Notes: a model not told the origin generated them from the letters alone. Counted from the stretch's first letter, positions 6,886 to 36,549 are shown. The stretch is 37,664 bases of DNA from Candidatus Melainabacteria bacterium RIFOXYA2_FULL_32_9 (GCA_001784615.1 MFRQ01000107.1:1-37664), one strand, 5' to 3'. Numbers and translations are program-made.

Positions 6886-8919
6886 CTATTCGAGGTTAAA
6901 TTTTGAGGCGATATACTTTTCAAAGATTTCTCCTGCTTTTTCAGGTACTGCATTTGATACTAATTCACCATCTACTGATATTGTAGGACTCTTGCCACAA
7001 TTTTCAAAGCAAAATGTAGCTTTTACTTTTACTTTATCTTCAAGGTTATTATCTTTTATTCGTTTTACTAAACCTTCCATAAAGTCATAAGAACCCTTAA
7101 TATAGCAACAAGTGCCAACACATACAGCAATTTCTGATTTCTTTTCTTCTATGTCGCCAGAAGTTAGCTCAATATTCTCACCTGAAATTCTTCTTTTGCT
7201 CTTATAATGAGTGTGGAGAAGTTCGTGAGCAATTTTACTATTCGGACTTTCAAGCCACTTTTTATATAAGTTTTGTACTTGTGGATTTTCGTGAGATTTA
7301 TGAATTGGTAATTCTACATCAGCTTTATAAAGACCTTTTGATCTATTTTTCTTAATAGAAGTATCTTTACAACTCTGCGGCTGACCGGCTCCACCAATAC
7401 ATCCACCTGGACATGCCATTACTTCGATAATATCATAATGGGCTTCACCTTTCTCGATTCTTTCGATAAGATCATTTGCTTCCTGTAATCCATTTACAAT
7501 AGCTATTTTGACTTTTAAGCCTTCAATGTCTACAGTAAGCTCTTTGAATTTATCTAATCCTCTTGCTTCAGTTACAGCAAATTTTTCCAGCGGTTTACCG
7601 GTAACCATTTCATATGCTGTTCTAACTACTGCTTCTGAGACCCCGCCAGATGAACCAAATATTACTCCTGCTCCTGTTAAGATACCAAAAGGTGTATCTA
7701 ACGGTTCAGGTTCGATATTACTAAAATCAATGCCTGCTTCTTTGATCATTCTGATTAATTCTTGAGTGGTCAAAACAATATCAACATCCTGAATGCCGTT
7801 ATTTTTAAACTCATTGCGTTGAGCTTCAGCTTTTTTAGCTGTACATGGCATTATTGATACGACTGTAAGATTTTCAGGATCAATATTATATTCTTTTGTC
7901 AGGTATTTTTTAGCAATTGAGCCGAACATTTGCTGTGGTGATTTGCAAGTAGAAAGATGCTTCAATAATTGAGGATATCTAAACTCTGCAAACCTTACCC
8001 AGGCAGGGCAGCAACTTGTAAACAAAGGAAGTTTTTCCTTATTTTGGAGTCTTGTTATAAACTCTGTTGTTTCTTCCATAATTGTCATATCAGCAGCAAA
8101 AGATGTATCAAAAATCTGATTGAAACCTATTTTCTTTAACGCTGCAACGATTAAACCAATTGTATTTTCTCCGGGCTTAAAACCAAATGCTTCACCAAGA
8201 GCAACTCTAACGGCAGGTGCAATTTGTGCTACAACGACCTTTTGCTGGTTCAAAACAGCTGCCCATGCATTATCGATCTCTGACTTAATAGTTAAAGCGC
8301 CTGTTGGACATACAGAAGTACATTGACCACAATATACACAGTCAACGTCACCCATATTTTTACCATACGCAGGAGATACTACTGTTTCAGAACCCCTATT
8401 AACGAAGTCGAGAACATTTTGTCCCTGAACTTCTTTACACATTCTTACGCAGTCACCACAAAGAATACATTTATTTGGATCTCTCACAATAGACGGATTA
8501 GAGTCATCAATAGGAAGCTCAATTTCCCTTTTACCAAATCTAACATCTCTAATACCCATCTTCTGAGTAAGCTCTTGAAGTTCACAATTATTACTCTTCT
8601 CACAAGTTGTACATTCTCTGTTATGATTGGCTAAGAGTAATTCAAGAGCAACTTTTCTGACTCTTCTTGTTTTCTCTGTATTAACTCTGACTTTTAAACC
8701 TGGTTCTGGAGGCACAGAGCAACTTGCCTGAACACCTCTACCTTCGATCTCAACAACGCACATACGGCAACCGCCATATATGGTAAGATCAGGTCTATAA
8801 CAGAAAGTAGGAACTTCAATTCCGGCTTTTCTTATAACTTCAAGCAAATTTCTTTCGTCCGTGTAAGTAGCTTCACGGCCATCTATATATAATTTATTTT
8901 TTACTAACGTTTCTGTCAT
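6886..8919 (-). CDS. hydA: [FeFe] hydrogenase catalytic subunit, HydA of a HydABC complex
   Basis: This 677-residue cytosolic enzyme reduces protons to H2 at an H-cluster. Domains in order are: 2Fe-2S ferredoxin (C40, C51, C54, C67), the His-Cys cluster HNRECTTC with C112, two 4Fe-4S sites (CILCGDC with C161; CVYCGQC with C204), and the H domain with TSCCPAW (301-307), MPCTAKK (357-363) and MACPGGCIGGAGQP (501-514). A C-terminal 2Fe-2S thioredoxin-like domain carries C600, C604, C637 and C641. All catalytic residues, including the proton-relay cysteine of the CC pair, are present. The length and extra C-terminal cluster match the electron-bifurcating HydA of Thermotoga-type trimers, which couple NADH and reduced ferredoxin oxidation. 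HydB and hydC lie just upstream. The maturases HydE, HydF and HydG are not in the window. AAAGGAG precedes the ATG. Confidence 0.97.
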   Translation of the reverse strand: MTETLVKNKLYIDGREATYTDERNLLEVIRKAGIEVPTFCYRPDLTIYGGCRMCVVEIEGRGVQASCSVPPEPGLKVRVNTEKTRRVRKVALELLLANHNRECTTCEKSNNCELQELTQKMGIRDVRFGKREIELPIDDSNPSIVRDPNKCILCGDCVRMCKEVQGQNVLDFVNRGSETVVSPAYGKNMGDVDCVYCGQCTSVCPTGALTIKSEIDNAWAAVLNQQKVVVAQIAPAVRVALGEAFGFKPGENTIGLIVAALKKIGFNQIFDTSFAADMTIMEETTEFITRLQNKEKLPLFTSCCPAWVRFAEFRYPQLLKHLSTCKSPQQMFGSIAKKYLTKEYNIDPENLTVVSIMPCTAKKAEAQRNEFKNNGIQDVDIVLTTQELIRMIKEAGIDFSNIEPEPLDTPFGILTGAGVIFGSSGGVSEAVVRTAYEMVTGKPLEKFAVTEARGLDKFKELTVDIEGLKVKIAIVNGLQEANDLIERIEKGEAHYDIIEVMACPGGCIGGAGQPQSCKDTSIKKNRSKGLYKADVELPIHKSHENPQVQNLYKKWLESPNSKIAHELLHTHYKSKRRISGENIELTSGDIEEKKSEIAVCVGTCCYIKGSYDFMEGLVKRIKDNNLEDKVKVKATFCFENCGKSPTISVDGELVSNAVPEKAGEIFEKYIASKFNLE

Positions 8920-8997
8920 AATTAAATCGTCTCCTTTATAGAAACCTTCAACTTATCCTGAATAGTAATGTTTTTGCCTTTAAATTTATTTAACACA

Positions 8998-10851
8998 TTA
9001 CACCTCTTTAATAGCTTTAAATGGACAAGCATCAATACAAGCACCGCATTTAATACACTTATTCTGATCAATTATAAACGGTTCTTTTACTTTTCCTTCT
9101 ATAGCATTAACAGGGCATTGTCTTGCACATTTTGAGCAACCTTTACAGAGATCTTTTATAATTTCTATCTTCTTAAATGCCTGACATACGCCAGCTGGAC
9201 ATCTTTTTTCAACAATATGTGCCAAATACTCGTCCTTGAAATACTGTAATGTTGACAATACAGGATTTGGAGCTGTTTTACCAAGCCCGCATAATGAACC
9301 ATCTTTTACAGCCAGAGCTAATTCCTGTAATATTTCAAGATCTTCCATTGTTGCTTTTCCACCAACAATTTTTTCAAGAATTTTCAGCATATTTTTAGTA
9401 CCTTCGCGACAAGGAACACACTTACCACAGGATTCATTCTGAGTAAAGTTCATAAAGAATCTAGCAATCTCGACTATGCAAGTATCTTCATTCAGTACAA
9501 CCAATCCGCCAGAACCTATCATTGCTCCTGCTCTTGTTAATGAATCATAATCAAGCGGCATATCAAGATGTTCTTCTGTTAAACATCCACCAGAAGGTCC
9601 ACCAATTTGTACAGCTTTAAATTTCTTGTCATTTCTTATTCCACCGCCAATATCAAATATGATTTGTCTTAATGTAGATCCCATTGGAACCTCGATTAAT
9701 CCGGTATTTCTGACTTCACCAGTTAAAGCAAAGGTTTTAGTGCCGGCATTATTTGCTGTACCTAAATCTTTAAACCACTGAGCACCATTATTGATAATTA
9801 GTGGGACATTAGCAAAGGTTTCTACGTTATTAATTAAAGTGGGTTTTTCAAATAACCCTTTATTCGCAGGAAATGGAGGCTTGGGTCTTGGCATGCCTCT
9901 TTCGCCTTCAATAGATGCAATAAGCGCTGTTTCTTCACCGCATACAAATGCTCCGGCTCCCTCTTTAATATGAACAATAAAGGAAAAATCTTTTCCTAAA
10001 ATGTTTTTACCAAGTAAACCATACTGTTCAGCTTGCACAATTGCTTTTTTTAATCTGTCAACTGCAAGAGGATATTCTGCACGTACATAAATATAACCTT
10101 CATCTGCGCCAACTGCGTAAGCTGCAATTGCCATACCTTCTAAAATTCTATGAGGATCACCTTCCATAAGGCTTCGATCCATGAATGCGCCCGGGTCACC
10201 TTCATCACCGTTACAGATTACATATTTCTTATCACCCTCAGCAATACGTACGAATCCCCATTTTCTACCAGTAGGAAATCCACCGCCACCTCGGCCTCTT
10301 AATCCACTTTCGATCATCTCATTACAAACTTGTTCAGAAGTATAACCATTTAAGATTTTCTCTAATGCCTGATATCCTGAGCTTGCAATACATTCATTTA
10401 TATCTTCTGGATTAATATGACCACAATTAGACAATGACGTCCTCTTTTGTTTAGCATAGAAGTTGATTTCATCATTATTTTTTATAGATTTATTAGTAGC
10501 AGGATCTCTATAAAGTAGTCTTTCTACTATCTCGCAGCCAATTAAGTGTTTGCTTACTATTTCATCAACATCTTCAGGTTTTACTTTTGCATAAGTCACA
10601 TGTTTTTCAGGAATCATCACTAATACACCGTTTTCGCAAAAACCATGACAACCAGTTTTTATCGGGGTATACTTTTCTTCCTTTAATTCCACATTAGCAC
10701 CAAGTTCCTGAAATCTTTTATAGACTTCAAGTGAACCATTAGCAACACATCCTGTTCCAGCACAAATTAGTACTCTGGTGCCCATTTCCTGAAGATATTG
10801 CTTTGCTTTCTCTTTTTCTTTTTTTAAATCTACTATCGTATTAGCTATCAT
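8998..10851 (-). CDS. hydB: HydB, NADH-binding flavoprotein subunit of the hydrogenase
   Basis: This 617-residue NuoF-like subunit takes electrons from NADH via FMN. An N-terminal thioredoxin-like 2Fe-2S domain (ICAGTGC...GCHGFC) is followed by the NuoF core, with GLRGRGGGGFPTGRKW (NADH/FMN binding), CNGDEGDPGAFMDR and CGEETALIASIEG. The 4Fe-4S site ESCGKCVPCREGT follows. The C-terminal extension has two 4Fe-4S motifs, CKGCSKCARQCP and CIKCGACIDACP. Complex I NuoF lacks both the N- and C-terminal additions, so this is a hydrogenase subunit. AGGAG precedes the ATG, 14 bases after hydC. A 78-base gap separates it from hydA. Confidence 0.97.
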   Translation of the reverse strand: MIANTIVDLKKEKEKAKQYLQEMGTRVLICAGTGCVANGSLEVYKRFQELGANVELKEEKYTPIKTGCHGFCENGVLVMIPEKHVTYAKVKPEDVDEIVSKHLIGCEIVERLLYRDPATNKSIKNNDEINFYAKQKRTSLSNCGHINPEDINECIASSGYQALEKILNGYTSEQVCNEMIESGLRGRGGGGFPTGRKWGFVRIAEGDKKYVICNGDEGDPGAFMDRSLMEGDPHRILEGMAIAAYAVGADEGYIYVRAEYPLAVDRLKKAIVQAEQYGLLGKNILGKDFSFIVHIKEGAGAFVCGEETALIASIEGERGMPRPKPPFPANKGLFEKPTLINNVETFANVPLIINNGAQWFKDLGTANNAGTKTFALTGEVRNTGLIEVPMGSTLRQIIFDIGGGIRNDKKFKAVQIGGPSGGCLTEEHLDMPLDYDSLTRAGAMIGSGGLVVLNEDTCIVEIARFFMNFTQNESCGKCVPCREGTKNMLKILEKIVGGKATMEDLEILQELALAVKDGSLCGLGKTAPNPVLSTLQYFKDEYLAHIVEKRCPAGVCQAFKKIEIIKDLCKGCSKCARQCPVNAIEGKVKEPFIIDQNKCIKCGACIDACPFKAIKEV

Positions 10852-10865
10852 AGCTTATTCTCCTA

Positions 10866-11384
10866 TTAGCATTCTTCTCTCTTTTGAAGCTCATCAATAA
10901 TGAGCTTGATAGCGTCCGGTGTCATTTGTGGATATACTTTTTCATTAATCACTACTACAGGAGCAAGCCCACAAGCACCCAGACAACTCACAGTTTCAAC
11001 ACTAAATTTAAGGTCATCTGTAGTTATTTTTCCGTTATTTAAGCTTAATTTCTCTCTAATGGCATTTAATACAGGCATGCTTTTTCTTACATGACACGCT
11101 GTACCATCACAAACCTTAATTTCGTATTTTCCTTTCGGATTTAAGCTAAATTGGCTATAGAAAGTTGCAACACCATATACACTTGCCGGTGAAATTCCCA
11201 TTGTTGTTGCAATATACGTTAAAATCTCTTCCGGTAAATAACGATATTCTTCTTGCACTTTCTGCAAAATTGCTATTAAATTTGATTTTTTATATTCGTA
11301 TTTACGAATAATCTCATTAACTTTGTTAAATTTTCTTTGCTGTTCCATCAATTCTTCTGTTCTATCGTGCTCTAGTTTTGCCAT
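10866..11384 (-). CDS. hydC: HydC, NuoE-like 2Fe-2S subunit
   Basis: The 172-residue thioredoxin-like ferredoxin passes electrons between HydB and HydA. It has an N-terminal helical bundle (IIRKYEYKKSNLIAILQKVQ, then YLPEEILTYIATTMG) and SPASVYGVATFYSQF. The four cluster cysteines are in CDGTAC and CLGACG. Full length for the family. AAAGGAG lies before the ATG. A 211-base gap with an inverted-repeat element separates it from the upstream phosphatase gene, so hydCBA-rex may also have its own start site. Confidence 0.95.
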   Translation of the reverse strand: MAKLEHDRTEELMEQQRKFNKVNEIIRKYEYKKSNLIAILQKVQEEYRYLPEEILTYIATTMGISPASVYGVATFYSQFSLNPKGKYEIKVCDGTACHVRKSMPVLNAIREKLSLNNGKITTDDLKFSVETVSCLGACGLAPVVVINEKVYPQMTPDAIKLIIDELQKREEC

Positions 11385-11416
11385 ATTCTGCTCCTTTGTT
11401 TATGTATTCAAACTTA

Positions 11417-11446
11417 TTTATAGTTAATTAAAGAAAAGCCAGTCAT
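11417..11446 (-). promoter_or_regulatory. Possible hydC promoter overlapping the end of a repeat element
   Basis: Read on the minus strand, ATGACT (complement of 11441-11446) is followed after 18 bases by TATAAA (complement of 11417-11422), 33 bases before the hydC start. The -35-like hexamer is the terminal repeat of the inserted element. It matches TTGACA at only four of six positions, so this is tentative. Confidence 0.3.
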
Positions 11447-11573
11447 TGTGAGGTGGCTAAGCCACATTATCAAGTCATCAATCGTTCCAATAACACCACT
11501 ATTATTCTGTGTTGGCTATGCTATATTCTATAGATCAATTACTATTTCAGAATTAGCACCCCTCACAATGACT
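11441..11573. repeat. Small inverted-repeat (MITE/REP-like) element
   Basis: Perfect 13-bp terminal repeats AGTCATTGTGAGG (11441-11453) and CCTCACAATGACT (11561-11573) bound a 133-base unit. Pairing continues inward imperfectly to about 20 bp. The left end also folds on itself (GTGGCTAAGCCAC, 11453-11465). The left end resembles the widespread intergenic repeats of the form GTCATTGCGAG followed by GAGCGAAGCGAC. No coding capacity and no obvious target duplication are seen. Confidence 0.7.
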
Positions 11574-11595
11574 TAACGGCTAATAAATGGAGGCT

Positions 11596-12834
11596 TTAAA
11601 AATACTCGATTTCAACTTCTTTGCCATGCCTTTCAAGCTTCTCCTTAAGTTCATTAATTAATTTGAGCTTTATACCACTTTGTACCGAGAAATTTGGATT
11701 TTGATGAGCAGGATTAATTGCTCTTCCAACTATAAATTTGATCTTATCTGCTTTTTGTAACTCACAAGCAAGTTCTTCAGCAGGATTTTCTGGAGTGTAG
11801 TCAATTTTCTTTACCGTATTTTCTAACAACGTTTGAGCCGTATCTTTAGCTCCATAAAGCTGATAAATATTCTGCATTCCATGATTAGTTTTTTTAATTG
11901 TGTATTCTTTTACTTTGTCAATTAACTCTACAACTCTGGATAAGGTTATAACTCCCTCAGTAACCAGGTCTATACCATCAATCACAGCCTTTGGCGGAAC
12001 GCTTAAATCTTTATTTCCCAGAATTACATGTATATCTTTATTTAAATATCTGGCAACGATATTTGCTGTTGTTCCACCACAAATGACTTTTTTTCCAGGT
12101 GAATGCATAAACATATCTACCATTTCAGAATCTCTATTTTTATTTAGCGGAGGACCGACTGCAACACTGAGGTTTCTTTTATCTCTTGCTTTAATTACAA
12201 CTATTGAAGTGTCATCTCCAATATTTCCTTGATATAACTCATTTGCTATAAATAGGAGTTTGTCAGCTATTACAGATGCGTCAACATCATCAATCGCATT
12301 TCTCTGAATGAAATTACCTATTTTGTCCCATCCCCAGCCAAGCTTAATCATTCCGCCTAGTCCGGCATGAATTAAACCATCACTGACAAGCACTATAAAA
12401 TCATCTTTTGATAACTTAAACTTGCTTATTTTTATATTTTTGCCGGCTATATTCGTATAATCAGATTCAAAAGGGGTTAGGCATCCTTCATGGATAAAGA
12501 AAGTATCAGGATTATCAAATTCGACAAGTTTAACCTCGTTATTATCAAATATTTGAACAATAGTGAAAGTTGAATATGCTATTTTTCTTGACTGGCAAAT
12601 AGGAAGAGTATTTACAATAGTTTCGACTACATCTTCTATTTCCATACCATTAGAAAGCATCGTAGATGCTATTTTCTTTGTTAATGTAGAGAGAATATTT
12701 GCCTTTACACCGCTTCCTAAACCATCAGACAGTACAATGACAGTATTATCCGGATTTTTAACAATTTCTACATTGTCTCCGCATAGTTCTTCACCGTTCT
12801 TATTTAGCTGTCTTATTTCATACTCAATATACAT
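11596..12834 (-). CDS. SpoIIE-type PP2C serine phosphatase linked to HydS
   Basis: The first ~220 of 412 residues are a PPM/SpoIIE phosphatase domain. Acidic metal-binding motifs are VIVLSDGLGSGVKAN (~33-46), LVSDGLIHAGLG (~150) and GNIGDDTSIVVI (~205). Such enzymes dephosphorylate serine or threonine on partner-switching proteins. The remaining ~190 residues form a second domain containing VICGGTTANIVARYL, and I cannot assign it a function. The gene lies 6 bases after hydS. Phosphatases of this kind are known neighbours of HydS hydrogenases in clostridia, where they are thought to relay the H2 or redox signal. No anti-sigma factor, anti-anti-sigma factor or serine kinase is visible nearby, so its substrate is unknown. 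Confidence 0.88.
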   Translation of the reverse strand: MYIEYEIRQLNKNGEELCGDNVEIVKNPDNTVIVLSDGLGSGVKANILSTLTKKIASTMLSNGMEIEDVVETIVNTLPICQSRKIAYSTFTIVQIFDNNEVKLVEFDNPDTFFIHEGCLTPFESDYTNIAGKNIKISKFKLSKDDFIVLVSDGLIHAGLGGMIKLGWGWDKIGNFIQRNAIDDVDASVIADKLLFIANELYQGNIGDDTSIVVIKARDKRNLSVAVGPPLNKNRDSEMVDMFMHSPGKKVICGGTTANIVARYLNKDIHVILGNKDLSVPPKAVIDGIDLVTEGVITLSRVVELIDKVKEYTIKKTNHGMQNIYQLYGAKDTAQTLLENTVKKIDYTPENPAEELACELQKADKIKFIVGRAINPAHQNPNFSVQSGIKLKLINELKEKLERHGKEVEIEYF

Positions 12835-12840
12835 AATCTA

Positions 12841-14532
12841 TTATTCCTGTTGAAGGATCTTAACTAATTGACCTAATAAAACTTTTGTTTCTGCTGTCGT
12901 CTCACCAAGCAGTCCTGCAATTTCTTGAGCTACCCGCATTTGCTTGTTTATTACTTTTTGAGCTCTTTCTAATGTTTCTTTCCTAACATTAATCAAGGCA
13001 GCTTTATGAGCTTCTATATCAGTTATATCGACGAATATACCGGTAATAAGTTTCTTATCGTGCACGTAGAAAACTATTCTCTTTATTTCTTTATCTTTAT
13101 AAATCGTTCTTGATTCGAATATCTCATCATTATTTTTTTGAACATCCTGAAAAGGCTGCTCATCAATAAATAAAGAGATATGCTTTCCTATCAGATCAAC
13201 TTTATTAAGCTCAATTAACCTTAGAAAAGCAGGATTAGCTTCAATTATATTCAAGTCATTATCTAAAACGACGACACCATTTGGAGTAGCATCAAGAACT
13301 ATAGAGGAGAATTTCTCTGCCTGACTTTTCATAAATGGTATACACATTTCTTTTTCTGCCATGCCAAGAATTACAGCCTTAGCTTTTTCTTTACAGCTGT
13401 CATACCCACAAGCACCACAATTATGTTCATCTTCAGGCCTGGTTTTACCGATAGATGCTAAAACTATTCTTATTTCTTCTTCAGCAGGTTCAGCTATTTT
13501 CAATGAACGGTCTGTATAATATCTTGCTGTCGCTTTTTCTGCAAGAATGTCTTGATCAAGCTTATATTTTTTTGTTTCAGAAAATGTACTAATTATATTA
13601 GTTTTTAATTCATAATAATTTGTTTCCTGCTCGGATTTTGGTCTTGCTGGACCCATAATACATCCACCATGACAGGCTAAAGTCTCAATAAATCTGGCTT
13701 TAAGTCTATTAGTTTTTAACGCATCTAATACTTCCTGTACATTTTCAACTCCATTAACAGAAAGAAGTTCATTGTCTAAATTGCTGTCATCTAATCCAGC
13801 AGCCTTAATTAAACCGCCTAAGAGTGGAAATAGTGAAGAAGTTCTCGAATAAAAAACGTCAAAAAAAATGGGTTCAAGATTGTCAATATCTAATTCTTCC
13901 TGCTCAATCCATTCATCTAACTCAGAAAAAGTAATACAAGCAGCTATATTGGTCCCTTCAATTTCTTGCTTTTTCGCAACACAGGGGCCAATAAATACCA
14001 TATCAAAATCTTTATAGTGCTCTTGCTCCAGAATCTTATAATGAGCTACCATCGGACTTACTATAGGTGCAAGATTTGGAATTAATTCAGGATAATATTT
14101 TTCAACTAAATTAACTATAGCAGGGCATGAACTGGTTATTACAGCTTTATCAGTATTTTTATATAAGTCAAAATGAGCTTTTGCAACAGTATATGCGGCT
14201 CGTGATGTCTGCTCAATATGATTAAATCCCAAATATTTGAGAGCTGTAAGGATTTTACCTCTTTTAGATTCGCTGTAATATGCAAAAAATGATGGAGCTA
14301 CGCTTGCTATGACATTATTACTTTGCTTTATAACGTTCTTAGCAATTTCTATATCATTTCTTATTGATTTCGCATTCTGGGGACATACTTTATAACAATT
14401 TCCATCTAATATACATCTATCTGGATCAACCTGGGCATGTCCGTCAGCTACTCTAATCGCATTTAATGGACAGTGTCTTACACACTTGTAGCAATCCTTA
14501 CAATTCACTTTATTTGTAGTTAATATGCTCAT
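12841..14532 (-). CDS. hydS: Sensory [FeFe] hydrogenase HydS with PAS domain
   Basis: This 563-residue group C-type hydrogenase is believed to sense H2 or redox state rather than make H2. Domains: two 4Fe-4S sites (CKDCYKCVRHC 11-21; C40, C46, C50), H domain with L1 TSSCPAI (133-139), L2 GPCVAKK (182-188) and L3 ACHGGCIMG (286-294), an extra 4Fe-4S domain NCGACGYDSC (371-380, plus C397), a PAS domain (~407-505) with VVLDNDLNIIEANPAF, and a C-terminal coiled coil (~509-540). All H-cluster ligand cysteines are kept. In L1 the first cysteine of the catalytic CC pair, which relays protons, is serine. That is typical of low-activity sensors. It is packed between the 2Fe-2S protein (1-base gap) and the phosphatase (6-base gap). 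Confidence 0.93.
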   Translation of the reverse strand: MSILTTNKVNCKDCYKCVRHCPLNAIRVADGHAQVDPDRCILDGNCYKVCPQNAKSIRNDIEIAKNVIKQSNNVIASVAPSFFAYYSESKRGKILTALKYLGFNHIEQTSRAAYTVAKAHFDLYKNTDKAVITSSCPAIVNLVEKYYPELIPNLAPIVSPMVAHYKILEQEHYKDFDMVFIGPCVAKKQEIEGTNIAACITFSELDEWIEQEELDIDNLEPIFFDVFYSRTSSLFPLLGGLIKAAGLDDSNLDNELLSVNGVENVQEVLDALKTNRLKARFIETLACHGGCIMGPARPKSEQETNYYELKTNIISTFSETKKYKLDQDILAEKATARYYTDRSLKIAEPAEEEIRIVLASIGKTRPEDEHNCGACGYDSCKEKAKAVILGMAEKEMCIPFMKSQAEKFSSIVLDATPNGVVVLDNDLNIIEANPAFLRLIELNKVDLIGKHISLFIDEQPFQDVQKNNDEIFESRTIYKDKEIKRIVFYVHDKKLITGIFVDITDIEAHKAALINVRKETLERAQKVINKQMRVAQEIAGLLGETTAETKVLLGQLVKILQQE

Positions 14533-17264: not shown

Positions 17265-18905
17265 ATGCACAAAATCAAGTTAAGAGGGATTATCCTGCCA
17301 TTAGTAATAATAATTCTAGGAGCAGTACTATCAATTATAGTAACTTTAATTCCAAAGCTTGTAATTACTATAAAAGTTCCTTTGTTATTAACAGGAGTGT
17401 TTGCTGCTTCTTCTGCAATTAACTTTTTGTTATTCAAAAAGGCTTCCGCTAATCAAGTCGTGGGGCTATCCTTTGCCAATACAATATTTTTTATAATAAT
17501 AACTTTATCGTCCCTGTTTTGCCTTGATATTATCGGAATTAAAGAAATAAACTTTTCATCAAATCTCAATATTAATCCATTTCTTATAATCATAAATTTA
17601 TTAACAAGTACGCTCACTCTATTTTTACTTATCAAACTTGAAGAAAATAAAGTTAATAAGAAATATATCCCAGCGATAACAAATGAATCACCCATAAATA
17701 TTCAAGAGAATAACTCAAAAGAAAATGAGACTGAAATTATCAGTATAAAAAATGCTCTTCAAAATGCTGAGTTAACGTCTTATACTGCTAAAAAATCCGA
17801 TGAACAGACATTTAATGATGATTCTTCTGATAAAAACAATGAAATATCAACTGAAGAATCATTTCTCGAAGATGCTATCATTACAAATTCAACTAATAAC
17901 ACCTTTAATAATAAATGTACAGAACAATCTCTTGATAATAATTTGGGAAATCTTCCTGAAATAAGTTTGGAAAAAAATACAACAGGATACAAAGATAAAA
18001 ATATTTCTCAAAATATGTATAATACGTCCATATTTGAGAATCAAGACCAGTTCATTCCTGAAAATGTACGTTTGGTTGAGAAAGCAGCTCCTAAAAAAGT
18101 AGGGGAAACATCAGCTCACATATCATCTATAGGAAAATTACTGGTTAATTATAAAGATATTGAAAATATTATTGAATTAAATGAATTTTCACAATCTGAA
18201 AATGAAACTGATAATGCAAATATAATTCCAAAAGAACTAGGAGAAAAATTAAAAGAAATCCTTACACAAATAGAGAAAGAATTTCCTCAAATTAAGAATT
18301 CAACTATATCAAATAAAGCAGGTTTCACTATTGCTAGCCTTATCAATGATAACAGAGCAGAACAAACTATAGGGGCACTGGCATCAGGTGCCTTTATGAC
18401 CTCACAGAATTATTTATCCCGACTAAATATAGGACAACCTTTAAAGATATTTTTTGAAACTCAAGTAGATATTCATATATTAATAAAAGTAGAGAACTTT
18501 ATTTTCTATTTCAATTGTAATAAAGAGTTTGAACCAATTAATCATTCATTATTAAGAGATACAATTGAACAAAATGTTTTTTCAAATCAAGATTTATCAG
18601 TTATAAAAAATATAAAAGGCATAACAGAAGCTGCGATTACTGATAAAGACGGTAATCTAATAGGATCTATTAACTCTGAAAACCCTCAAAAGATGGCATC
18701 AATTACTTCCGCTATATTTGAAAACCTAAAAGTATTCATTTCCAACATTCAACCAGCAAAATTAAATAAAATGATAATATTTGCCAGTGAAAAAATAATA
18801 ACTATAAAAAAATACAATGATGCAATTGCATCACTATCAAGTACACTTGAAGGACCTATAACAACATCAGAAAAAATTATTAAAATAGAAGGGTTAATTA
18901 AGTAG
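17265..18905 (+). CDS. Membrane-anchored protein with two Roadblock/LC7-like domains
   Basis: The 546-residue protein starts with four probable transmembrane helices (~8-30, 36-55, 64-88, 104-124). A long polar, Asn/Glu/Ser-rich linker (~130-320) follows. Two C-terminal domains (~328-425 and ~443-546) each show the Roadblock/LC7 order of helix, the strand-turn NSTISNKAGFTIAS or EAAITDKDGNLIGS, a small-residue helix (TIGALASGAFMTSQ; MASITSAIFENLKV), and two final strands. Bacterial Roadblock proteins such as MglB control small Ras-like GTPases and pilus polarity. This gene opens the operon, 16 bases before pilB, so a role in placing or tuning the pilus motor is inferred. The Roadblock call is from pattern only and is the weaker part. 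AAAGGAA precedes the ATG. Confidence 0.7.
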   Translation: MHKIKLRGIILPLVIIILGAVLSIIVTLIPKLVITIKVPLLLTGVFAASSAINFLLFKKASANQVVGLSFANTIFFIIITLSSLFCLDIIGIKEINFSSNLNINPFLIIINLLTSTLTLFLLIKLEENKVNKKYIPAITNESPINIQENNSKENETEIISIKNALQNAELTSYTAKKSDEQTFNDDSSDKNNEISTEESFLEDAIITNSTNNTFNNKCTEQSLDNNLGNLPEISLEKNTTGYKDKNISQNMYNTSIFENQDQFIPENVRLVEKAAPKKVGETSAHISSIGKLLVNYKDIENIIELNEFSQSENETDNANIIPKELGEKLKEILTQIEKEFPQIKNSTISNKAGFTIASLINDNRAEQTIGALASGAFMTSQNYLSRLNIGQPLKIFFETQVDIHILIKVENFIFYFNCNKEFEPINHSLLRDTIEQNVFSNQDLSVIKNIKGITEAAITDKDGNLIGSINSENPQKMASITSAIFENLKVFISNIQPAKLNKMIIFASEKIITIKKYNDAIASLSSTLEGPITTSEKIIKIEGLIK

Positions 18906-18921
18906 GGAATAAATACAGTTT

Positions 18922-20916
18922 ATGATAAAAAATAATCTAAATGATCTTTTGCTGGAAACAGCTATTCTAACCTCAGATCAGCTAAAAAAAGCAATTATAG
19001 AAAAAGATAGAGCAAGAAAGTCACTTTTAGAAGCAATTTGCGATCTTGGATTTGTTTCTAAGGAAAATCTTTATGATCAGCTTAAAACTGCTCTTGAACT
19101 TCAATATGGAGTAAATTTCTTACAATTACACGAAATAGAAATCGATCAAGAGCTACTTAATACGTTTCCTGAAGAATTAATTATTAATAACAAAATTATT
19201 CCGATAAAAAGAAGCGAAAATTTATTTACATTTGCTATGGTCGACCCTGATAATCTGGCAGCAGAAAAAGAAATTAAATATAGATTAAGTGAAATTAAAG
19301 ATTTAAAGATCAAAAAAACCGTAATTCTTGAAGATGATTTCAATAAATTTATAGAAAACCAATTTCCTAAAAAAGAAGAAATTCCTGAGATTATAGAACA
19401 AAGCACTGATGAACTGCTTACATCATTAGGAATTGATCTGGTAGAATCCAGAATTGATGATCTTGATATTGCAGATTTAACAGATTCTGCACAAGAGGCA
19501 CCTATTATTCAGTTAGCAAACAGCATATTAGGAATAGCAATAAGAAGAGGCGTAAGTGACATACACGTAGAACCTCAGGAGAAAGATCTTTTTGTCAGAT
19601 TTAGACAAGATGGGGTTTTAAGTATTTACAAAAAATTACCTAAAAAGATTCAAAATGCACTTATTTCACGATATAAAATTATGTCAGAACTTGATATATC
19701 AGAGCGAAGACTGCCACAAGATGGCAGAATTCGTGTCAAAATAGTAAATAAATTTATTGATTTTCGTGTATCAACATTACCAAGCAAATTTGGTGAAAAA
19801 ATTGTAATGAGAATTTTAGATAAATCAAATATATCTTTTGGATTGGATCAGCTCATTACAAACCAGGAAACCTTAAAAATTGTTCACGAAATGATAAGCA
19901 AACCGTTTGGAATAATCTTCGTAACAGGCCCAACCGGTAGCGGTAAAACAACTACATTGTATAGTGCTTTAAGTGAAAGAAATACTCCTGAAGTAAATAT
20001 ATCTACAGCTGAAGACCCTATAGAATACGATCTTGAAGGAATAACTCAGTCTGAAGTTAATAAATCAATTGGTATGGATTTTGCAAAAATATTAAAAGCG
20101 TTTTTAAGACAAGATCCAGATATAATGCTAGTCGGTGAAACCAGAGACAAAGAAACAGCCAAAATAGCTGTAGAGGCAGCACTTACAGGCCACCTGGTAT
20201 TTACAACACTGCACACAAATGATGCACCAAGCTCAATTATTCGACTTCAGGAAATGGGAATAGAACCATTCCTGGTATCAAGCACAATAATTGGGATAAT
20301 CGCCCAAAGGCTTTTGAGAAAACTATGCCCACACTGTAAAGAAGCATATACACCGGATAAGCAAATCCTTGACTATCTGGGAGTAGGAATGCTTGAAAAT
20401 AAAACATATTATCATGGTATTGGCTGTGAAAAATGTAACGGTACTGGATATAAAGGCCGTATCGGGGCTTATGAAGTCATGAAAATTAATGATGAAATAA
20501 AAGATTTAATTGCAAAAGATGCCAATACTTCAATAATAAAATTTGCTGCCCAACAATCAGGAATGAAAACCTTACTTGAATATAGTTTTGAACTTGCAAG
20601 AGAAGGATTAACTACTTTAGAGGAAGTAATCAGAGTTACACTATCCTCAGATTGCATGTCCTCGGTTTGTCCTGGATGTGGAAGACCTATCGGAGATGAA
20701 TTTTATAAATGTCCATTCTGTCAATACGAACTCAAAAAGATTTGTCCACGCTGCAAAGTTATTATACAAGAAGGATGGATATCTTGCGCAAAATGCGGTT
20801 TAAAATTATTAGATCATAAAGCCGATACTACTTGTAACAATTGCGATGGTGAAGTATCATTAGAAATGCACGAATGTCCTTGGTGTTGTCAGCCTATTTC
20901 CAATAACAATGTATAA
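18922..20916 (+). CDS. pilB: PilB-type pilus assembly ATPase with three C-terminal zinc ribbons
   Basis: This hexameric cytoplasmic ATPase drives type IV pilus extension. The N-terminal GspE/PilB domain (~1-150) leads to the motor: GPTGSGKTTTLYSAL (Walker A), TAEDPIEYDLEGITQSEVN (Asp box), DPDIMLVGETRD (Walker B) and HLVFTTLHTND (His box). The usual LCPHC...CEKCNGTG metal site of the family follows. Unusually, an additional ~82 residues (583-664) carry three more CxxC pairs of pairs: CPGC/CPFC, CPRC/CAKC, CNNC/CPWC. These are three zinc ribbons in tandem, and the typical ~560-residue PilB has none. No ideal Shine-Dalgarno (AGGGAA 13 bases upstream). Pil order is Roadblock-pilB-pilT-pilC. Confidence 0.95.
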   Translation: MIKNNLNDLLLETAILTSDQLKKAIIEKDRARKSLLEAICDLGFVSKENLYDQLKTALELQYGVNFLQLHEIEIDQELLNTFPEELIINNKIIPIKRSENLFTFAMVDPDNLAAEKEIKYRLSEIKDLKIKKTVILEDDFNKFIENQFPKKEEIPEIIEQSTDELLTSLGIDLVESRIDDLDIADLTDSAQEAPIIQLANSILGIAIRRGVSDIHVEPQEKDLFVRFRQDGVLSIYKKLPKKIQNALISRYKIMSELDISERRLPQDGRIRVKIVNKFIDFRVSTLPSKFGEKIVMRILDKSNISFGLDQLITNQETLKIVHEMISKPFGIIFVTGPTGSGKTTTLYSALSERNTPEVNISTAEDPIEYDLEGITQSEVNKSIGMDFAKILKAFLRQDPDIMLVGETRDKETAKIAVEAALTGHLVFTTLHTNDAPSSIIRLQEMGIEPFLVSSTIIGIIAQRLLRKLCPHCKEAYTPDKQILDYLGVGMLENKTYYHGIGCEKCNGTGYKGRIGAYEVMKINDEIKDLIAKDANTSIIKFAAQQSGMKTLLEYSFELAREGLTTLEEVIRVTLSSDCMSSVCPGCGRPIGDEFYKCPFCQYELKKICPRCKVIIQEGWISCAKCGLKLLDHKADTTCNNCDGEVSLEMHECPWCCQPISNNNV

Positions 20917-20937
20917 TTAATGTTGAGGAATAAATTT

Positions 20938-22020
20938 ATGTCATTAGATGATCTGCTTAAGGTTGTATTTCAAAAAGGTGGGAGTGACTTACATATTTCA
21001 GTTGGATTACCTCCCATCATAAGAATAGACGGCAAATTAATTAGAACCGATCATCCTCCACTCACAAAAGAAGATGTTAATGGGCTAATTTTTAGCATGT
21101 TAACAAACGAACAAAGAAGAACTTTGGAGCAAAACTGGGAACTGGATTGCAGTTATGGAGTTCAGGATATTGGACGATTCAGGGTTAACGTTTATAAAGA
21201 AAGAGGTAGTTATGGTGCGGCTCTTCGTTCTATCCCTACTCAACCACCATCTTTCAATGAATTAGGTCTACCAAGCATAATCAGAGAAGTAGCAGAACGC
21301 CCCAGAGGTTTAATACTAGTAACCGGACCTACAGGTAGCGGTAAATCTACTACACTGGCTGCAATGATAGACTTCATTAACAGCAATAAAACAGAGCATA
21401 TTATTACAATTGAAGACCCAATAGAATATATTCACAATTCAAAAAGAAGCGTTGTCCACCAAAGAGAGTTAGGAGAAGATACAAGAAGTTTTAATAACGC
21501 ATTAAGAGCTGCTCTTCGTGAAGATCCGGATATAATCCTGGTTGGTGAGATGAGAGACCTTGAAACTATACAGCTAGCATTAACAGCAGCTGAAACAGGT
21601 CACCTTGTAATGGGAACATTACACACATCATCTGCAAGTCAAACTGTTGACCGTATAGTTGACGTGTTTTCTGCTGAACAGCAACAACAAATTAGAATTC
21701 AGCTATCTAACAGTTTAATTGCAGTATTCAGCCAAACACTTATCCCAAAAGTTCAGCCAGATGGCCAGAAAAAGGGTAGAGCACTTGCTCAAGAAATTAT
21801 GGTTGTCACACCTGCTATTGCAAACTTAATTAGAGAAGGCAAAACTGCTCAGATATACTCTGCAATTCAAACTGGTGGAATGCATAAAATGCAAACTCTT
21901 GAGTCATCTCTTAAAGAACTGTATCAAAAGAACCTTATCACTCAAGAAGATGCTATAGCTAAAACAAGCAGGCCTGAAGATTTTAAACGTATGATTGGTG
22001 GTTTTGCCCCCACAATGTAA
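20938..22020 (+). CDS. pilT: PilT, type IV pilus retraction ATPase
   Basis: A 360-residue ATPase that powers pilus disassembly and twitching motility. N-terminal PAS-like part (GGSDLHISVGLPPIIRIDG), then Walker A GPTGSGKSTTLAAM, TIEDPIEYIH, Walker B DPDIILVGEMRD, HLVMGTLHTSSA, and the PilT signature ANLIREGKTAQIYSAIQTG near the C-terminus. I choose the ATG at 20938, which gives the standard PilT N-terminus and has GAGG about 10 bases upstream. An ATG at 20920 would put that Shine-Dalgarno inside the gene. It follows pilB by 21 bases. Confidence 0.96.
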   Translation: MSLDDLLKVVFQKGGSDLHISVGLPPIIRIDGKLIRTDHPPLTKEDVNGLIFSMLTNEQRRTLEQNWELDCSYGVQDIGRFRVNVYKERGSYGAALRSIPTQPPSFNELGLPSIIREVAERPRGLILVTGPTGSGKSTTLAAMIDFINSNKTEHIITIEDPIEYIHNSKRSVVHQRELGEDTRSFNNALRAALREDPDIILVGEMRDLETIQLALTAAETGHLVMGTLHTSSASQTVDRIVDVFSAEQQQQIRIQLSNSLIAVFSQTLIPKVQPDGQKKGRALAQEIMVVTPAIANLIREGKTAQIYSAIQTGGMHKMQTLESSLKELYQKNLITQEDAIAKTSRPEDFKRMIGGFAPTM

Positions 22021-22111: not shown

Positions 22112-23344
22112 ATGCCTCAGTTTCAGTATAAAGCAAGAGATGGACAGGGAACATTACATAAAAATACAATAATATCTGAAAATGAAACCTTGGCAAGAAA
22201 TCAATTAGCAGAAAAAGGACTCTGGGTAATTGAGATTTCAAATGCAGATGTAAAAACAAAAAACTTCCTTGATTTTGAACTTGATGGACTGCTTGCAGGG
22301 TTAACTGGCGTAGGATTAAAAGACCTTGTTGTATTTTGCAGGCAATTTTCTGTTCTGGTTAATTCCGGTGTAGCTATGATGAAAACTCTTACAATTCTGG
22401 CTGAACAGGCAGAAAATCCAAAATTTTCATCAATTTTAAAAGATATAAAAAATCAAGTAGAAAGAGGAATAAACCTGTCAGATTCATTTGCAAAACATCC
22501 AAAAGTGTTTGACAACTTATTTATCAATATGATAAAAGCAGGTGAAACTGGTGGTGTACTTGATGATGTCCTAAACCGACTTGCTAAATTTCTGGAAGAC
22601 AGAGCAAAACTTACTAATAAAGTAAAATCAGCAATGACTTATCCGACTGTGGTTACTATTCTTGCTACTATAATATTCTTTGTTATGCTTACAGTTATTC
22701 TTCCTAAATTTTCAGAAATATTTGAGCGTTTAGGAAGTGAATTACCTGCTTATACACAAACGTTAATCCATATAAGCAATGTTTTAAGATCACCATGGCT
22801 TCTGCTAATCATTTTCTTAATTGGCTGCTCAGCATACGGATTTAAGAAAATGTACTCTATTGAGAAAGGCAGATATATCATAGATAAAATAAGCCTAAAA
22901 TTGCCTGTATTTGGTGTTCTAATACAAAAAGTAGCCGTTGCAAGGTTTACAAGAACCTTAGGAACATTAATTAAAAGTGGTGTACCTATATTGACATCGC
23001 TGGAAATAGTTGAAGAAGCATCAGGAAACGCAGTTTTATCAAGAGTTGTCAGAGAAGTATATGAAGAGGTAAAACAGGGTGGCACAATAAATGCACCTCT
23101 AGAAAGATCCAAGGTTTTCCCTCCAATGGTAGTTTCTATGATTGCTGTTGGTGAAGAAACCGGAGAATTAGACTCAATGTTATCTAAAATCGCAGATTTT
23201 TACGACTCAGAAGTAGAAGCAGCAGTTGAAGCTTTAACATCCCTTCTAGAACCAATAATGATGGTGTTTCTAGGTGGCATGGTCGGCGCTGTAATTGTTG
23301 GCATGTATCTGCCTATGTTCAAAATGTTTGATGCTGTTAAATAA
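22112..23344 (+). CDS. pilC: PilC, inner-membrane platform protein of type IV pili
   Basis: A 410-residue GspF-family membrane protein that anchors the assembly ATPase. The N-terminus FQYKARDGQGTLHK is typical. Two GspF repeats are visible (~70-190 with FCRQFSVLVNSGVAMMKTL and GETGGVLDDVLNRLA; ~275-400 with FTRTLGTLIKSGVPILTSL and GEETGELDSMLSKIA). Hydrophobic helices follow each (YPTVVTILATIIFFVMLTVI; LEPIMMVFLGGMVGAVIVGM), plus a third near residue 230. CAAGGAG precedes the ATG. It ends the operon; no pilin or PilM-Q gene follows. Confidence 0.96.
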   Translation: MPQFQYKARDGQGTLHKNTIISENETLARNQLAEKGLWVIEISNADVKTKNFLDFELDGLLAGLTGVGLKDLVVFCRQFSVLVNSGVAMMKTLTILAEQAENPKFSSILKDIKNQVERGINLSDSFAKHPKVFDNLFINMIKAGETGGVLDDVLNRLAKFLEDRAKLTNKVKSAMTYPTVVTILATIIFFVMLTVILPKFSEIFERLGSELPAYTQTLIHISNVLRSPWLLLIIFLIGCSAYGFKKMYSIEKGRYIIDKISLKLPVFGVLIQKVAVARFTRTLGTLIKSGVPILTSLEIVEEASGNAVLSRVVREVYEEVKQGGTINAPLERSKVFPPMVVSMIAVGEETGELDSMLSKIADFYDSEVEAAVEALTSLLEPIMMVFLGGMVGAVIVGMYLPMFKMFDAVK

Positions 23345-26161: not shown

Positions 26162-27010
26162 ATGACTACCCTACAAAAAATAGGAACACCACAAGCAATT
26201 TTGCCTAAAGATCAGGGCAATGTACGTTTTAATCCGCCAATTAATTTTAAAGGTGAAGACGAATCTGAAGACACTCTAAATATAACAAATTCTCAAGATG
26301 AAAATGAAGTTGAAGCATCATCACAAGATAATAAAGCTAAAAAAGAAGAATCAAAGCCAGTTAGAAAACTTGATCTAACTGAAGCTGCAACAAATTTTGG
26401 AAAAGGTGTTATTTCACCAATAACATCAATGTTTTCTAGTCCTGAAAACTTCTTAAAAGGTGCAGGTGCAATAGCAATTGGCAATTACTTACTGAAAAAA
26501 ATTCCCAAAGTAGGTGGATTGTTAGTAGCTACTGGACTTGGTATTGGCGCAATAAGAACAGCTACAGGGTTGCGTGATGTAATTAAAGAGAAAGACCCGG
26601 CACAAAAAGAAAAAGCATTTTACACCATAGGAGAAGGCACTGGTATCACTCTAGCTTCAGCGTATGTAGCCAAACCTATTGCAAAAAATGCAGGACTTAA
26701 TGTAGAAGGGAAAGGCTTAGTAGGTTCTACAATTGAATGTATTAAACCTACAAATATAAAAAATGCTGTTGCTTCACTGTTTAAAGCATTAGAAGATCCA
26801 AATACTCTGAAAACAATAGTAACAAGAGATATTGGACAAATGTCCGTTGCATCAGGAACAACAGGTGATGCTACACCTAAAATAGCTGATCCTACAAACA
26901 ATGGAATGGAAAATGGAATACTTTCAGCAATATCCAAACTACTTCCTAAAAGTAAAACATTAGCAGGTGGTATGGCGATAAGAGAAGCAGCAGAAAATGA
27001 TAATGAGTAA
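26162..27010 (+). CDS. Hypothetical protein with N-terminal F-K-G motif
   Basis: I do not recognise this 282-residue protein. It has a short N-terminal segment ending in RFNPPINFKGEDE (~23-35) and an acidic disordered stretch (~35-65). A Gly/Ala-rich hydrophobic region (~95-130, with two possible membrane-associated helices around GAGAIAIGNYLL and GGLLVATGLGIGAI) follows, then another small-residue helix (~155-175) and a polar tail. There is no signal peptide. AAGGAG lies 8 bases before the ATG, and a strong terminator follows, so it is a real single-gene transcript. It shares the P-x-(x)-F-K-G-[DE] element with the protein at 35.9 kb. Confidence 0.8.
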   Translation: MTTLQKIGTPQAILPKDQGNVRFNPPINFKGEDESEDTLNITNSQDENEVEASSQDNKAKKEESKPVRKLDLTEAATNFGKGVISPITSMFSSPENFLKGAGAIAIGNYLLKKIPKVGGLLVATGLGIGAIRTATGLRDVIKEKDPAQKEKAFYTIGEGTGITLASAYVAKPIAKNAGLNVEGKGLVGSTIECIKPTNIKNAVASLFKALEDPNTLKTIVTRDIGQMSVASGTTGDATPKIADPTNNGMENGILSAISKLLPKSKTLAGGMAIREAAENDNE

Positions 27011-27294: not shown

Positions 27295-30200
27295 TTAAGC
27301 AACAGGTAAGGTAAAGTAAAAGGTTGTACCTTTATTTATTTCGGATTCAAACCATATTCTACCATTATGTAATTCAACAATTTGCTTGGATAAATACAGA
27401 CCAAGGCCTGTTCCAACTTCTCTTTTAGTTGTCGGATATCTTTGAAATATTTTAGGTTTCTCAACCTCAGAAACACCACGCCCATTGTCTTTTACTGAAA
27501 CTTGAACTTCATTATTTATTTTCTTAGCTGCTATAGTTATTTGTGTTCCTTTTTTATTATGCTTAATTGCATTGCTTATAAGATTGACTAAAACCCTGTT
27601 AATTTCAGTTCTATCCATCATAACCAGAGGTAAATCAGGCTCAATATCTACAATGATATTTGATTCTTCGGCCCTTGCGAGGTATTTTAAAGATCTTATA
27701 GCTTCTTCAATTACATTTTTTACATTACCAGGTTGAATATTCAACACAATCATTCCTGACTCATATTGATATACAGAAAGCATATTATTCACTATCCTTA
27801 GCAGTTCTTCATTAGTGTTATAAATATCTTCCAGATATTCTATATAATCTTTTAGCGGTGAAACTGGATCTCTTGAGGTCATAAACTCAATTGCCTTTTG
27901 CTCTGCAATAATAGGACTTTTCAAGTCGTGAGTCAAAGTTGCAATAAATGTTCTCCTGGTTTCATCGAGTTCCTGTCGTTGAGAAGCTTCAAAAAAGACA
28001 ATAGATGCAGCATCAATCATTAATTTAAATAGATCGACTTCATCTGATGTCCACTTTCTAGGGCTGGAAGAGGTAATTAGTGTAATTCCGGTAATTTCTT
28101 CATGTTCAGCCTCAAATACTCTTCTTGAAGTCGGATATAACAATAATGCCTGGATTTCATTTGACTTTAAATATTCTCTAAATTCGATATCCCGAATTTC
28201 CTCATCCACATTATTTATAGGTATGGCCTGTTCCGGAACAGGTCTGATTTCATTAATACACTCTGCACATAAAAGAGTTTGCTTATATAATGATTTATAA
28301 CGCTCTTTATCAGCTATATACTCATTTTGAATATATAAATTAGCCTTGTCATCCTCATGTAAGTGCAGGCTTCTATCAACGTTAAATGTTGGTGCTAATT
28401 TAGTTAATAAATAATCATATATTTGATCATGAGTCTCAAGCTTCCTAACCTCAATTATCATTTCTCGTACTATTCTTTCATTATCAAGTGATTTTTTTAG
28501 CCTCTCATTTAATCTGAATAAATTTATACCTATAGAAATTTGCTGAACTATTGGATTTAAAATATCAATATCCTCTTTTTCCCAGGCTTTTTTAGGGGTT
28601 GTATTAGTTATAACTAATACGGCAATTGAATTATTCTGATAAAAAACGGGTACAGCTATAGTGGATATGACTCCAAGCCTCTTATACTCTTCTCTTAATG
28701 GCTCAGGATATTTAGGATCATTAATATCATTAACTATTAGAGTATTTTTCTTATCAAAAAGCTCTGTTGCCAAATATTCATCTACTTCTTTTGGGTAAGA
28801 CCCCATTCCTATTGCTGATGGTACACTCTCATCCCTTTTATATTCCCCAACAACCTCAGAAAAAACTCTAAATGTTTCATCATAAAATCTAATGGCAACC
28901 CTATCTACATCAAATAAAATTCCTACTTCGAAAGTAATACTTTGAACGGCTTCCTTTAGGCTAGTGCTTGTTAATACCTCATTAATTATAGTTCTTAATA
29001 ATCTTTCTCTATCACTAGTTTCCTGAATTTGGTCATATAACTGAGCTTGATAAACAACTATAGATGACTGATTTGCTACAGCTGACATAAGATCAATATC
29101 ATTCTGATTAAACTGTTTGTAACTGTTAACATAATCAACAATGAGTAGTCCTAAAGGAATATCTCTATAGAACATAGGTGCAACTATAAAAGATTTTACT
29201 GCATATTTTTCTATTATATATTTTGTCTCATCAGGTACTTCAAGAGTTCTGGAGTCATTTACAGCTAAAACACGTTGTTGATCAATTACAATTTTTGTAA
29301 AAAGGCTCATTTGTTCTCTAGTAACATGTAAACCACCTACGTCTTTAAATATTAAAGACGAAATATAAGATCCATAACTTTCTACTGGTAAATACTCTTG
29401 TGTTTTAGCATTATATCCAATAAAGAAGCACCTATCAGCCTTAAATAATTCGCCAGTTTGTGTAACTATCGATTTTATTGCTTCTTTTGTACTTAATGAT
29501 CTTATAGATGTAACCATAATTTCCCGTAGAAGTTGCTCTCTCTGGGCAAGCATTTTTGTTGAAGTAAATAATTGAGATTGATATATAGCAATAGCAATTT
29601 GATCCACTATAGGAATCAAAGTATTAACATCCTCTTCAGTCCACTTTCTTTTATATTTAGTCTGCACAGCAAGTAATACTGCAAGAGGCTCTTCATTATG
29701 CAAAATAGGTAATGCTATTGCTGACTTAAGTTCATAGTTTCTTGCAAATTCTTTAGATTCCGCACCAAGATTTGATGCATCAACATCATCAATGATTATT
29801 GGTCTCATTTCCTCAAAAAGAACATGTTTTATAAGCTGATTTACCTCTTCAGGATATTGAACCTTTAAAGTAGATGGAATAGTAATATCAGCTCTATATT
29901 CACGCTGCCCGGGCTCAAGTTTTCCTGTCTGTGGATTATATAATCTTAGTACACAGTTATCCAGGTTAAGCAGCAAACCTACTTCTCTTGTTACTACCTC
30001 AAAAACATCGTTAATATCAAGTGAGGTTAATACGAGATTAATAATTCTTCTTAGTGTATACTCTCTTTTTGCAATATCATTTGTAGAAGTATAAAGTCTT
30101 GCTTGATAAATGACAGTTGAAATCTGAGATTCAAGAGACTTTATTAAGTTAATCGTACTTTTCGACCAATAATGAGATTTACTAAAATAACAAAGCATTA

Positions 30201-31713: not shown

Positions 31714-31893
31714 GTCCTCAAACTTATTAATAAATAAACACATTAATTTTCTTACTAAATATTGATAAATTTCATTAGACTTATAACTAAAATAACTAAT
31801 CTACTTATTAATAATCCTGATATAAGAGGTCTGAGGATTAATTCTTCTGTAAAAATGAAGTTAAATTAGGAAATTTAAACAAATTTTATGAGA

Positions 31894-36527: not shown

Positions 36528-36549
36528 TATAGCCTCCAAATGTATAATA

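Follow-up and report, generated by a model that had tools for sequence, protein, structure and literature searches.

A membrane-anchored tandem Roadblock protein encoded with the type IV pilus motor of non-photosynthetic Cyanobacteriota, a candidate partner of the GTPase MglA

Pairs of the Ras-like GTPase MglA with a Roadblock protein are already known, as is the control of pili by MglA in Myxococcus xanthus (PMC11580455, PMC4316618). In this organism MglA acts via SgmX to recruit the pilus extension ATPase PilB, by a mechanism that is unknown (PMC11580455), and the GTPase-activating protein (GAP) of SofG, which positions PilB and PilT, was unknown when that system was reported (PMC4316618). 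The Roadblock partner MglB forms a dimer that binds one MglA via helix 2 (alpha2) of both subunits (PMC6876712), and its C-terminal helix docks on MglA residues K181/K185, L64 and I67 and raises GTPase activity (PMC6785124). MglA/MglB pairs are usually gene-coupled (390 of 449; PMC4316618). Here we describe a locus on a contig of 37,664 nucleotides (the whole of which is the window) from Candidatus Melainabacteria bacterium RIFOXYA2_FULL_32_9 (GCA_001784615.1 MFRQ01000107.1:1-37664), where a gene for a membrane-anchored tandem Roadblock protein, called RBL below, stands directly upstream of pilB, pilT and pilC. The RBL family proved to be nearly confined to genomes that also encode MglA. It is apparently undescribed: in the literature searched, with subscription-only papers outside the search, no account turned up of a pilB operon that encodes a membrane-anchored Roadblock protein, or of a linker bearing docking repeats of the MglB type, and a review of PilB regulation mentioned neither Roadblock proteins nor MglA.

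Architecture of RBL and its place in the pilus motor operon

The range under study, 17265-20916, consists of the RBL gene and pilB. The features of the operon are as follows.

17265..18905, + strand: RBL, membrane-anchored tandem Roadblock protein, 546 residues, ATG start (open reading frame (ORF), Pfam, AlphaFold2, homologues in relatives)
17292..17666, + strand: four membrane helices, residues 10-134 (AlphaFold2, hydropathy)
17667..18122, + strand: disordered linker, residues 135-286, without xx[IL]Dx[LI]F repeats (predicted local distance difference test (pLDDT) < 50, motif scans)
18048..18191, + strand: conserved segment, residues 262-309 (I-R-L ... ISSIGKLLVNYKDIENIIELNE), isolated helix (alignment, AlphaFold2)
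18231..18545, + strand: Roadblock domain 1, residues 323-427 (AlphaFold2; module profile against PDB)
18555..18902, + strand: Roadblock domain 2, residues 431-546 (Pfam on the domain alone, AlphaFold2, profile comparison)
18922..20916, + strand: pilB, type IVa pilus extension ATPase (MshEN + T2SSE) with a C-terminal double zinc ribbon (Pfam, NCBIfam)
20920..22020, + strand: pilT, retraction ATPase (Pfam T2SSE 4.9e-51)
22112..23344, + strand: pilC, inner-membrane platform (T2SSF) (Pfam T2SSF 1.4e-74)

An earlier note on this DNA had given RBL four membrane helices followed by a long disordered linker and a pair of Roadblock-like domains. Structure prediction bore this architecture out, with support from Pfam for the Roadblocks and from hydropathy for the membrane helices. 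The AlphaFold2 model, built on a 14-member homologue alignment, placed helices at residues 10-27, 38-56, 62-90 and 105-134 (pLDDT ~80-90), concordant with four membrane segments in the hydropathy plot, followed by disorder at residues 129-318 (pLDDT < 50). Both Roadblock folds were complete, with pLDDT mostly ~90 and the element order alpha1-beta1-beta2-alpha2-beta3-beta4-beta5 present in each. Foldseek matched the model to Roadblock3 9jue (1.7e-5) and to M. xanthus MglB 6hjm (3.5e-4, root-mean-square deviation 2-3 A across ~105 residues), with further matches to dynein LC7, LAMTOR, MP1-p14 and Mon1-Ccz1. When the tandem was modeled alone, the predicted template modelling score was 0.76 despite 57 disordered residues out of 285, which suggests a defined (predicted) packing of the two domains.

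At the sequence level, the whole protein scored 34 bits against Pfam Robl_LC7 (PF03259; cut-off 23) and 27.3 bits against MAPKK1_Int, the MP1/LAMTOR3 family (cut-off 25), and these matches spanned residues 328-415 and 444-502. Scored singly against Robl_LC7, the domains reached 18.7 and 21.7 bits (curated cut-off 23), with a value of 1.7e-4 for domain 2 alone. A profile of the RBL module matched Roadblock chains of the PDB at 2.6e-9, and the full-length alignment found nothing better than 0.28 in the PDB search.

The conserved segment ahead of the Roadblock domains contains a helix (residues 296-309) that had low pLDDT and was not packed against them. Across the 14 RBL homologues, I264, R269, I289, K291, L292, L293, E300 and I303 were invariant, and the K and L of the GKLL motif were invariant throughout the phylum sample. 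This GKLL helix is a candidate second docking element, for MglA or for the motor. It was also considered as a PilB N-terminal (MshEN-like) motif, with which its spacing does not match.

The genes of the operon are tightly spaced, with 16 bp from the RBL stop codon to pilB, 3 bp from pilB to pilT and 91 bp from pilT to pilC. PilB scored 3.9e-131 for T2SSE, 1.5e-10 for MshEN and 1.6e-5 for the double zinc ribbon DZR, and its best NCBIfam match was TIGR02538 PilB at 602.7 bits, under the cut-off of 675.65. The DZR extension (20668-20901) reaches past the usual PilB end; PilB of relatives was ~64-71% identical over nearly the whole length. PilT orthologues in relatives were 65-81% identical.

The window's genome (2.46 Mb, 171 contigs, 99% complete) is of the same class as family f8, and its order is one that we take to be probably Gastranaerophilales. 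RBL homologues were found in 14 of 60 relatives, its own genome counted in; a 15.7-bit match in the membrane-helix region of one further genome (G006) was dropped as spurious, as the locus check gave no RBL match there. The linkage to pilB, which the earlier note had made a test of its proposal, was kept: pilB and then pilT directly followed RBL in 12 of the 12 relative loci where the contig continued, and pilC was visible in 10. Given this distribution and this conserved order, the operon arrangement is not due to chance. Searching the phylum brought in 13 more genomes, in which the RBL module, or its Roadblock within a long frame, was detected; at the Sericytochromatia, Tanganyikabacteria and allied loci examined, the order RBL-pilB-pilT-pilC was seen wherever contig and ORF calls permitted reading. 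Several of these loci had pheT upstream of RBL. Because RBL also comes after pheT in f12 and in Obscuribacterales, the order pheT-RBL-pilB-pilT-pilC, seen in the deep lineages, is probably ancestral. In a public genome scan, well-matched RBL loci carried the titles of Cyanobacteriota groups or of bacteria without a group name, and two Bacillota-labelled loci matched RBL over the Roadblock alone. Public contigs matching the f8 RBL module were titled Obscuribacterales or Melainabacteria; the idea that the f8 matches were low-complexity linker artefacts was rejected, as checking revealed genuine homologues of the module.

In the Sericytochromatia f18, a separate gene for a Roadblock protein of 108-110 residues lies between RBL and pilB, at the following positions.

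L160:6624-6950, L161:7164-7496, L162:6777-7106, L166:8060-8389, L172:771-1097: small f18 Roadblock genes

In profile comparisons run both ways, the small protein scored best with domain 2 of the window's RBL, and the Roadblock of the long f18-type proteins with domain 1; the differences were modest. Because of this split gene and the domain-wise pairing, RBL of the window is most simply read as a fusion of two Roadblock partners, which agrees with the built-in dimer that had been suggested for it. Since the MglB dimer uses both alpha2 helices on MglA, such a fused pair could offer one ready-made site.

MglA and its co-occurrence with RBL

No GTPase gene lies inside the RBL-pilB-pilT-pilC operon, as the earlier note had stated. 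The absence does not extend to the genome, which encodes an MglA orthologue of 192 residues on another contig (C61; RBL is on C107) with a phmmer value of 1.4e-61 to M. xanthus MglA. It keeps the P-loop, R53, T54, T78 and PGQ82, and in relatives too the two genes are on separate contigs. A genome search for Roadblock proteins gave none besides RBL, barring one 10-bit match at chance level. PilM is also encoded in this genome. The mglA gene is followed after a 15-bp gap by a HAMP-PAS-HisKA-HATPase sensor kinase gene, forming a two-gene operon (L061:8893-11322, - strand). The kinase was closely downstream of mglA in 14 of 14 relatives of the window's order (15 genomes with its own); in other lineages a kinase gene adjoining mglA was not seen.

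MglA and RBL were gained or lost together. Among the 60 relatives they coincided in 14 genomes, and MglA alone was found only in G025, probably because of an assembly gap, as the main PilT is missing there too. Of 240 genomes in the class, 51 had both, 4 the RBL module only (one f12 genome and three that are 65-82% complete), 0 MglA only and 185 neither. MglA was present in all 13 deep-lineage RBL genomes checked, and the counts for 386 genomes of the phylum were 14 with both, 4 with MglA only and 1 (f12) with RBL only. Co-presence extended across 12 families with genomes of ~2 to 9 Mb. Absences clustered in the reduced-genome families f2, f6 and f7, and neither gene was found in the photosynthetic cyanobacteria sampled.

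A second line of evidence comes from the linker. M. xanthus MglB ends in EISDDDIDNLFSE, which includes DDIDNLF (sequence verified against PDB chains), and the core of this C-terminal helix, xx[IL]Dx[LI]F, is also the core of a motif in the linkers of RBL relatives. Scanning with the pattern xx[ILVM][DESNG]x[LVIM]F gave 3-8 copies of (S/N)(A/S)LD(D/N)LF or near variants in Sericytochromatia (repeat peptide GGLDSALDDLFGD), one copy in Tanganyikabacteria and relatives, and mostly 3-6 copies of the xDIDNIF type (e.g. SDIDNIF) in Obscuribacterales, where 23 of 25 loci had the motif; an f13 protein carries ISDNDMDKIFSEN. For the multi-copy cases, shuffled linkers gave an expectation of about 0.03-0.2 copies. 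In the window's order, the same scan found the motif in none of the 13 RBLs. Lineages with the motif kept K181 and K/R185 in their main MglA; the 15 MglAs from the order that lacks it all kept K181 but have N185 instead of K, a change that is the predicted consequence of losing the docked helix.

Proposed role of RBL and its alternatives

We consider it probable that RBL is an inner-membrane partner of MglA at the type IV pilus, a membrane-tethered platform resembling MglB and Ragulator that brings MglA to the motors. The four helices would anchor RBL in the membrane and it would be co-expressed with PilB, PilT and PilC, while the flexible linker would give the Roadblock pair, linked covalently as an MglB-like (hetero)dimer, the reach to meet MglA encoded elsewhere. 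For most family members, several linker peptides may occupy the allosteric pocket of MglA as the C-terminal helix of MglB does, which would make RBL a multivalent MglA catcher; the window's order has lost both these peptides and the matching pocket lysine. It is from the co-occurrence and the docking motifs that we infer that RBL would hold the GTPase at the membrane. RBL would thus raise the local concentration of MglA-GTP around the base of the pilus, probably with stimulation of GTP hydrolysis, and the access of PilB and PilT to the machine, presumably involving contact with RBL, would depend on the GTP cycle of MglA. In the window's order, the kinase encoded next to mglA may feed into this cycle.

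Several observations weigh against this proposal. The mglA and RBL genes were never neighbours at any locus examined. RBL of Obscuribacterales adjoins pheT and a peroxiredoxin-like gene and has no pil neighbours, in f12 a divergent RBL stands next to pilT with MglA absent from 6 of 6 genomes, and four deep-lineage genomes with MglA, two of them 95-96% complete, gave no RBL match. The co-occurrence data are moreover non-independent, as presence and absence track the tree with few independent events, and motif loss together with K185N represents a single event on a single branch. At the five loci inspected in families without RBL and MglA (L233-L237), pilT was isolated, with neither pilB nor pilC beside it, so that some of the co-loss could be due to disappearance of the motor operon as a whole; for the same reason, retention of PilT is a weak control for pilus loss. 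With the RBL hidden Markov model profiles, M. xanthus MglB scored 1-7 bits, a negligible similarity, and the small residues of its helix 2 are, as judged by eye, not kept in RBL. A GAP interface is therefore unsupported by sequence, and since RBL resembles MglB in its fold alone, GAP, exchange factor and scaffold are not separable in this way.

The f12 proteins deserve separate mention. At these loci (L091-L096), the RBL-like membrane protein is encoded immediately upstream of pilT with no intervening pilB. It is possible that this RBL is an MglA-independent derivative.

A sub-variant of the proposal, in which RBL is an exchange factor or a passive Ragulator-like membrane scaffold for MglA and not a GAP, is a real if lesser possibility. 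MglB, the characterised bacterial Roadblock that binds MglA, is a GAP and had no exchange activity in one study (PMC6876712), which speaks for the GAP role; on the other hand, Roadblock/longin pairs are known as exchange factors, GAPs or scaffolds (PMC9481161, PMC10329633). The membrane anchor, the paired non-identical Roadblocks, the MAPKK1_Int score over its cut-off and the Foldseek matches to LAMTOR, MP1/p14 and Mon1-Ccz1 would suit this variant, and multivalent docking repeats fit a scaffold.

It seems unlikely that RBL is mainly a motor adaptor, the idea raised in the earlier note; its Roadblock pair or GKLL helix would then bind PilB/PilT directly and control their position or gating, and MglA would be dispensable or absent. 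Such a role would leave unexplained both the near-perfect co-occurrence with MglA and the repeats resembling the MglB C-terminal helix that track MglA K185, and it fits poorly with the Obscuribacterales locus described above. The neighbour of RBL is nevertheless pilB in the window's order and the deep lineages, and pilT in f12, not mglA; f12 retains the RBL-pilT pair without MglA; and no segment is more conserved than the GKLL helix, which does not pack against the Roadblocks, as expected of a docking peptide. That the co-occurrence merely reflects shared ancestry and genome reduction, with gut-type families losing many genes and no functional tie between these two, is improbable, because the MglA pocket changes along with the linker motif and co-presence holds across families and genome sizes, even though the absences are concentrated in f2, f6 and f7, where pilB and pilC are missing beside pilT at the five loci.

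Returning to RBL as an MglA partner, a fuller account is that a membrane Roadblock scaffold as old as the phylum, with multivalent MglA-docking repeats, couples a Ras-like GTPase to type IV pilus motors in non-photosynthetic Cyanobacteriota, and was remodelled in the window's lineage by fusion, loss of the repeats and K185N. We put this forward tentatively, as an account that may well need revision in one part or another. The route from MglA-type GTPases to pilus motors is open even in M. xanthus, and RBL, whose gene is built into the motor operon, may supply the physical connection that is missing between the MglA switch and the motor. As the repeats of the relatives resemble the sole MglB peptide with a mapped MglA pocket, this link is testable with peptides and two purified proteins.

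Other genes of the window and comparison with known systems

Further genes of the window are listed here as observations in their own right.

6886-14532, - strand: hydrogenase-type cluster; its [FeFe]-hydrogenase-like protein (12841-14532), which contains a PAS domain, has a phosphatase-like gene (11596-12834) as neighbour, suggestive of a regulator that senses redox state or H2
26162-27010 and 35883-36539: unrelated small proteins sharing an N-terminal F-K-G motif (NFKGED, AFKGDF)
27295-31743, - strand: histidine kinase of 1482 residues that combines several GAF domains with a MASE3-like membrane sensor
36638-37459, - strand: matrixin-type metalloprotease (HEIGHAVGLDHS, Peptidase_M10 1e-10)

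The closest described system is MglA/MglB of M. xanthus and Thermus thermophilus, with which the present one shares an MglA orthologue with R53 and Q82, a Roadblock pair that is its presumed partner and, in relatives of the window's RBL, linker repeats that resemble the D/E-rich ...DxLF docking helix and are absent in the window's order. MglB, however, is small, soluble and homodimeric, has a single Roadblock and usually adjoins mglA, whereas RBL has 546 residues and four membrane helices, adjoins pilB and carries two unlike Roadblocks in one chain. The putative docking helices of the family precede the fold, whereas that of MglB follows it, and the likeness between the two is at the fold level with no detectable direct sequence similarity. 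In the M. xanthus MglA-SgmX-PilB system (MglC, RomR, RomY), a Ras-like GTPase likewise controls the access of PilB and two kinds of Roadblock interact, but the link there is the TPR protein SgmX and here it would be a Roadblock protein encoded within the motor operon. Actinobacterial conservons (CvnA kinase, CvnB Roadblock, CvnC and CvnD GTPase) also combine a kinase and an MglA-family GTPase with a Roadblock protein; here, unlike in a conservon operon, only mglA and the kinase gene form an operon, the Roadblock gene is unlinked in the pilus operon, and no CvnC was seen. Finally, Ragulator/LAMTOR comprises membrane-anchored Roadblock heterodimers that hold Rag GTPases on the lysosome, and RBL shares with it the membrane-anchored pair of unlike Roadblocks. 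Ragulator consists of separate subunits with a lipid anchor and serves eukaryotic Rag GTPases; the likeness is one of analogy only. With this proviso, RBL can be set beside the Ragulator-type scaffolds that keep small GTPases at membranes, as a compact counterpart in bacteria.

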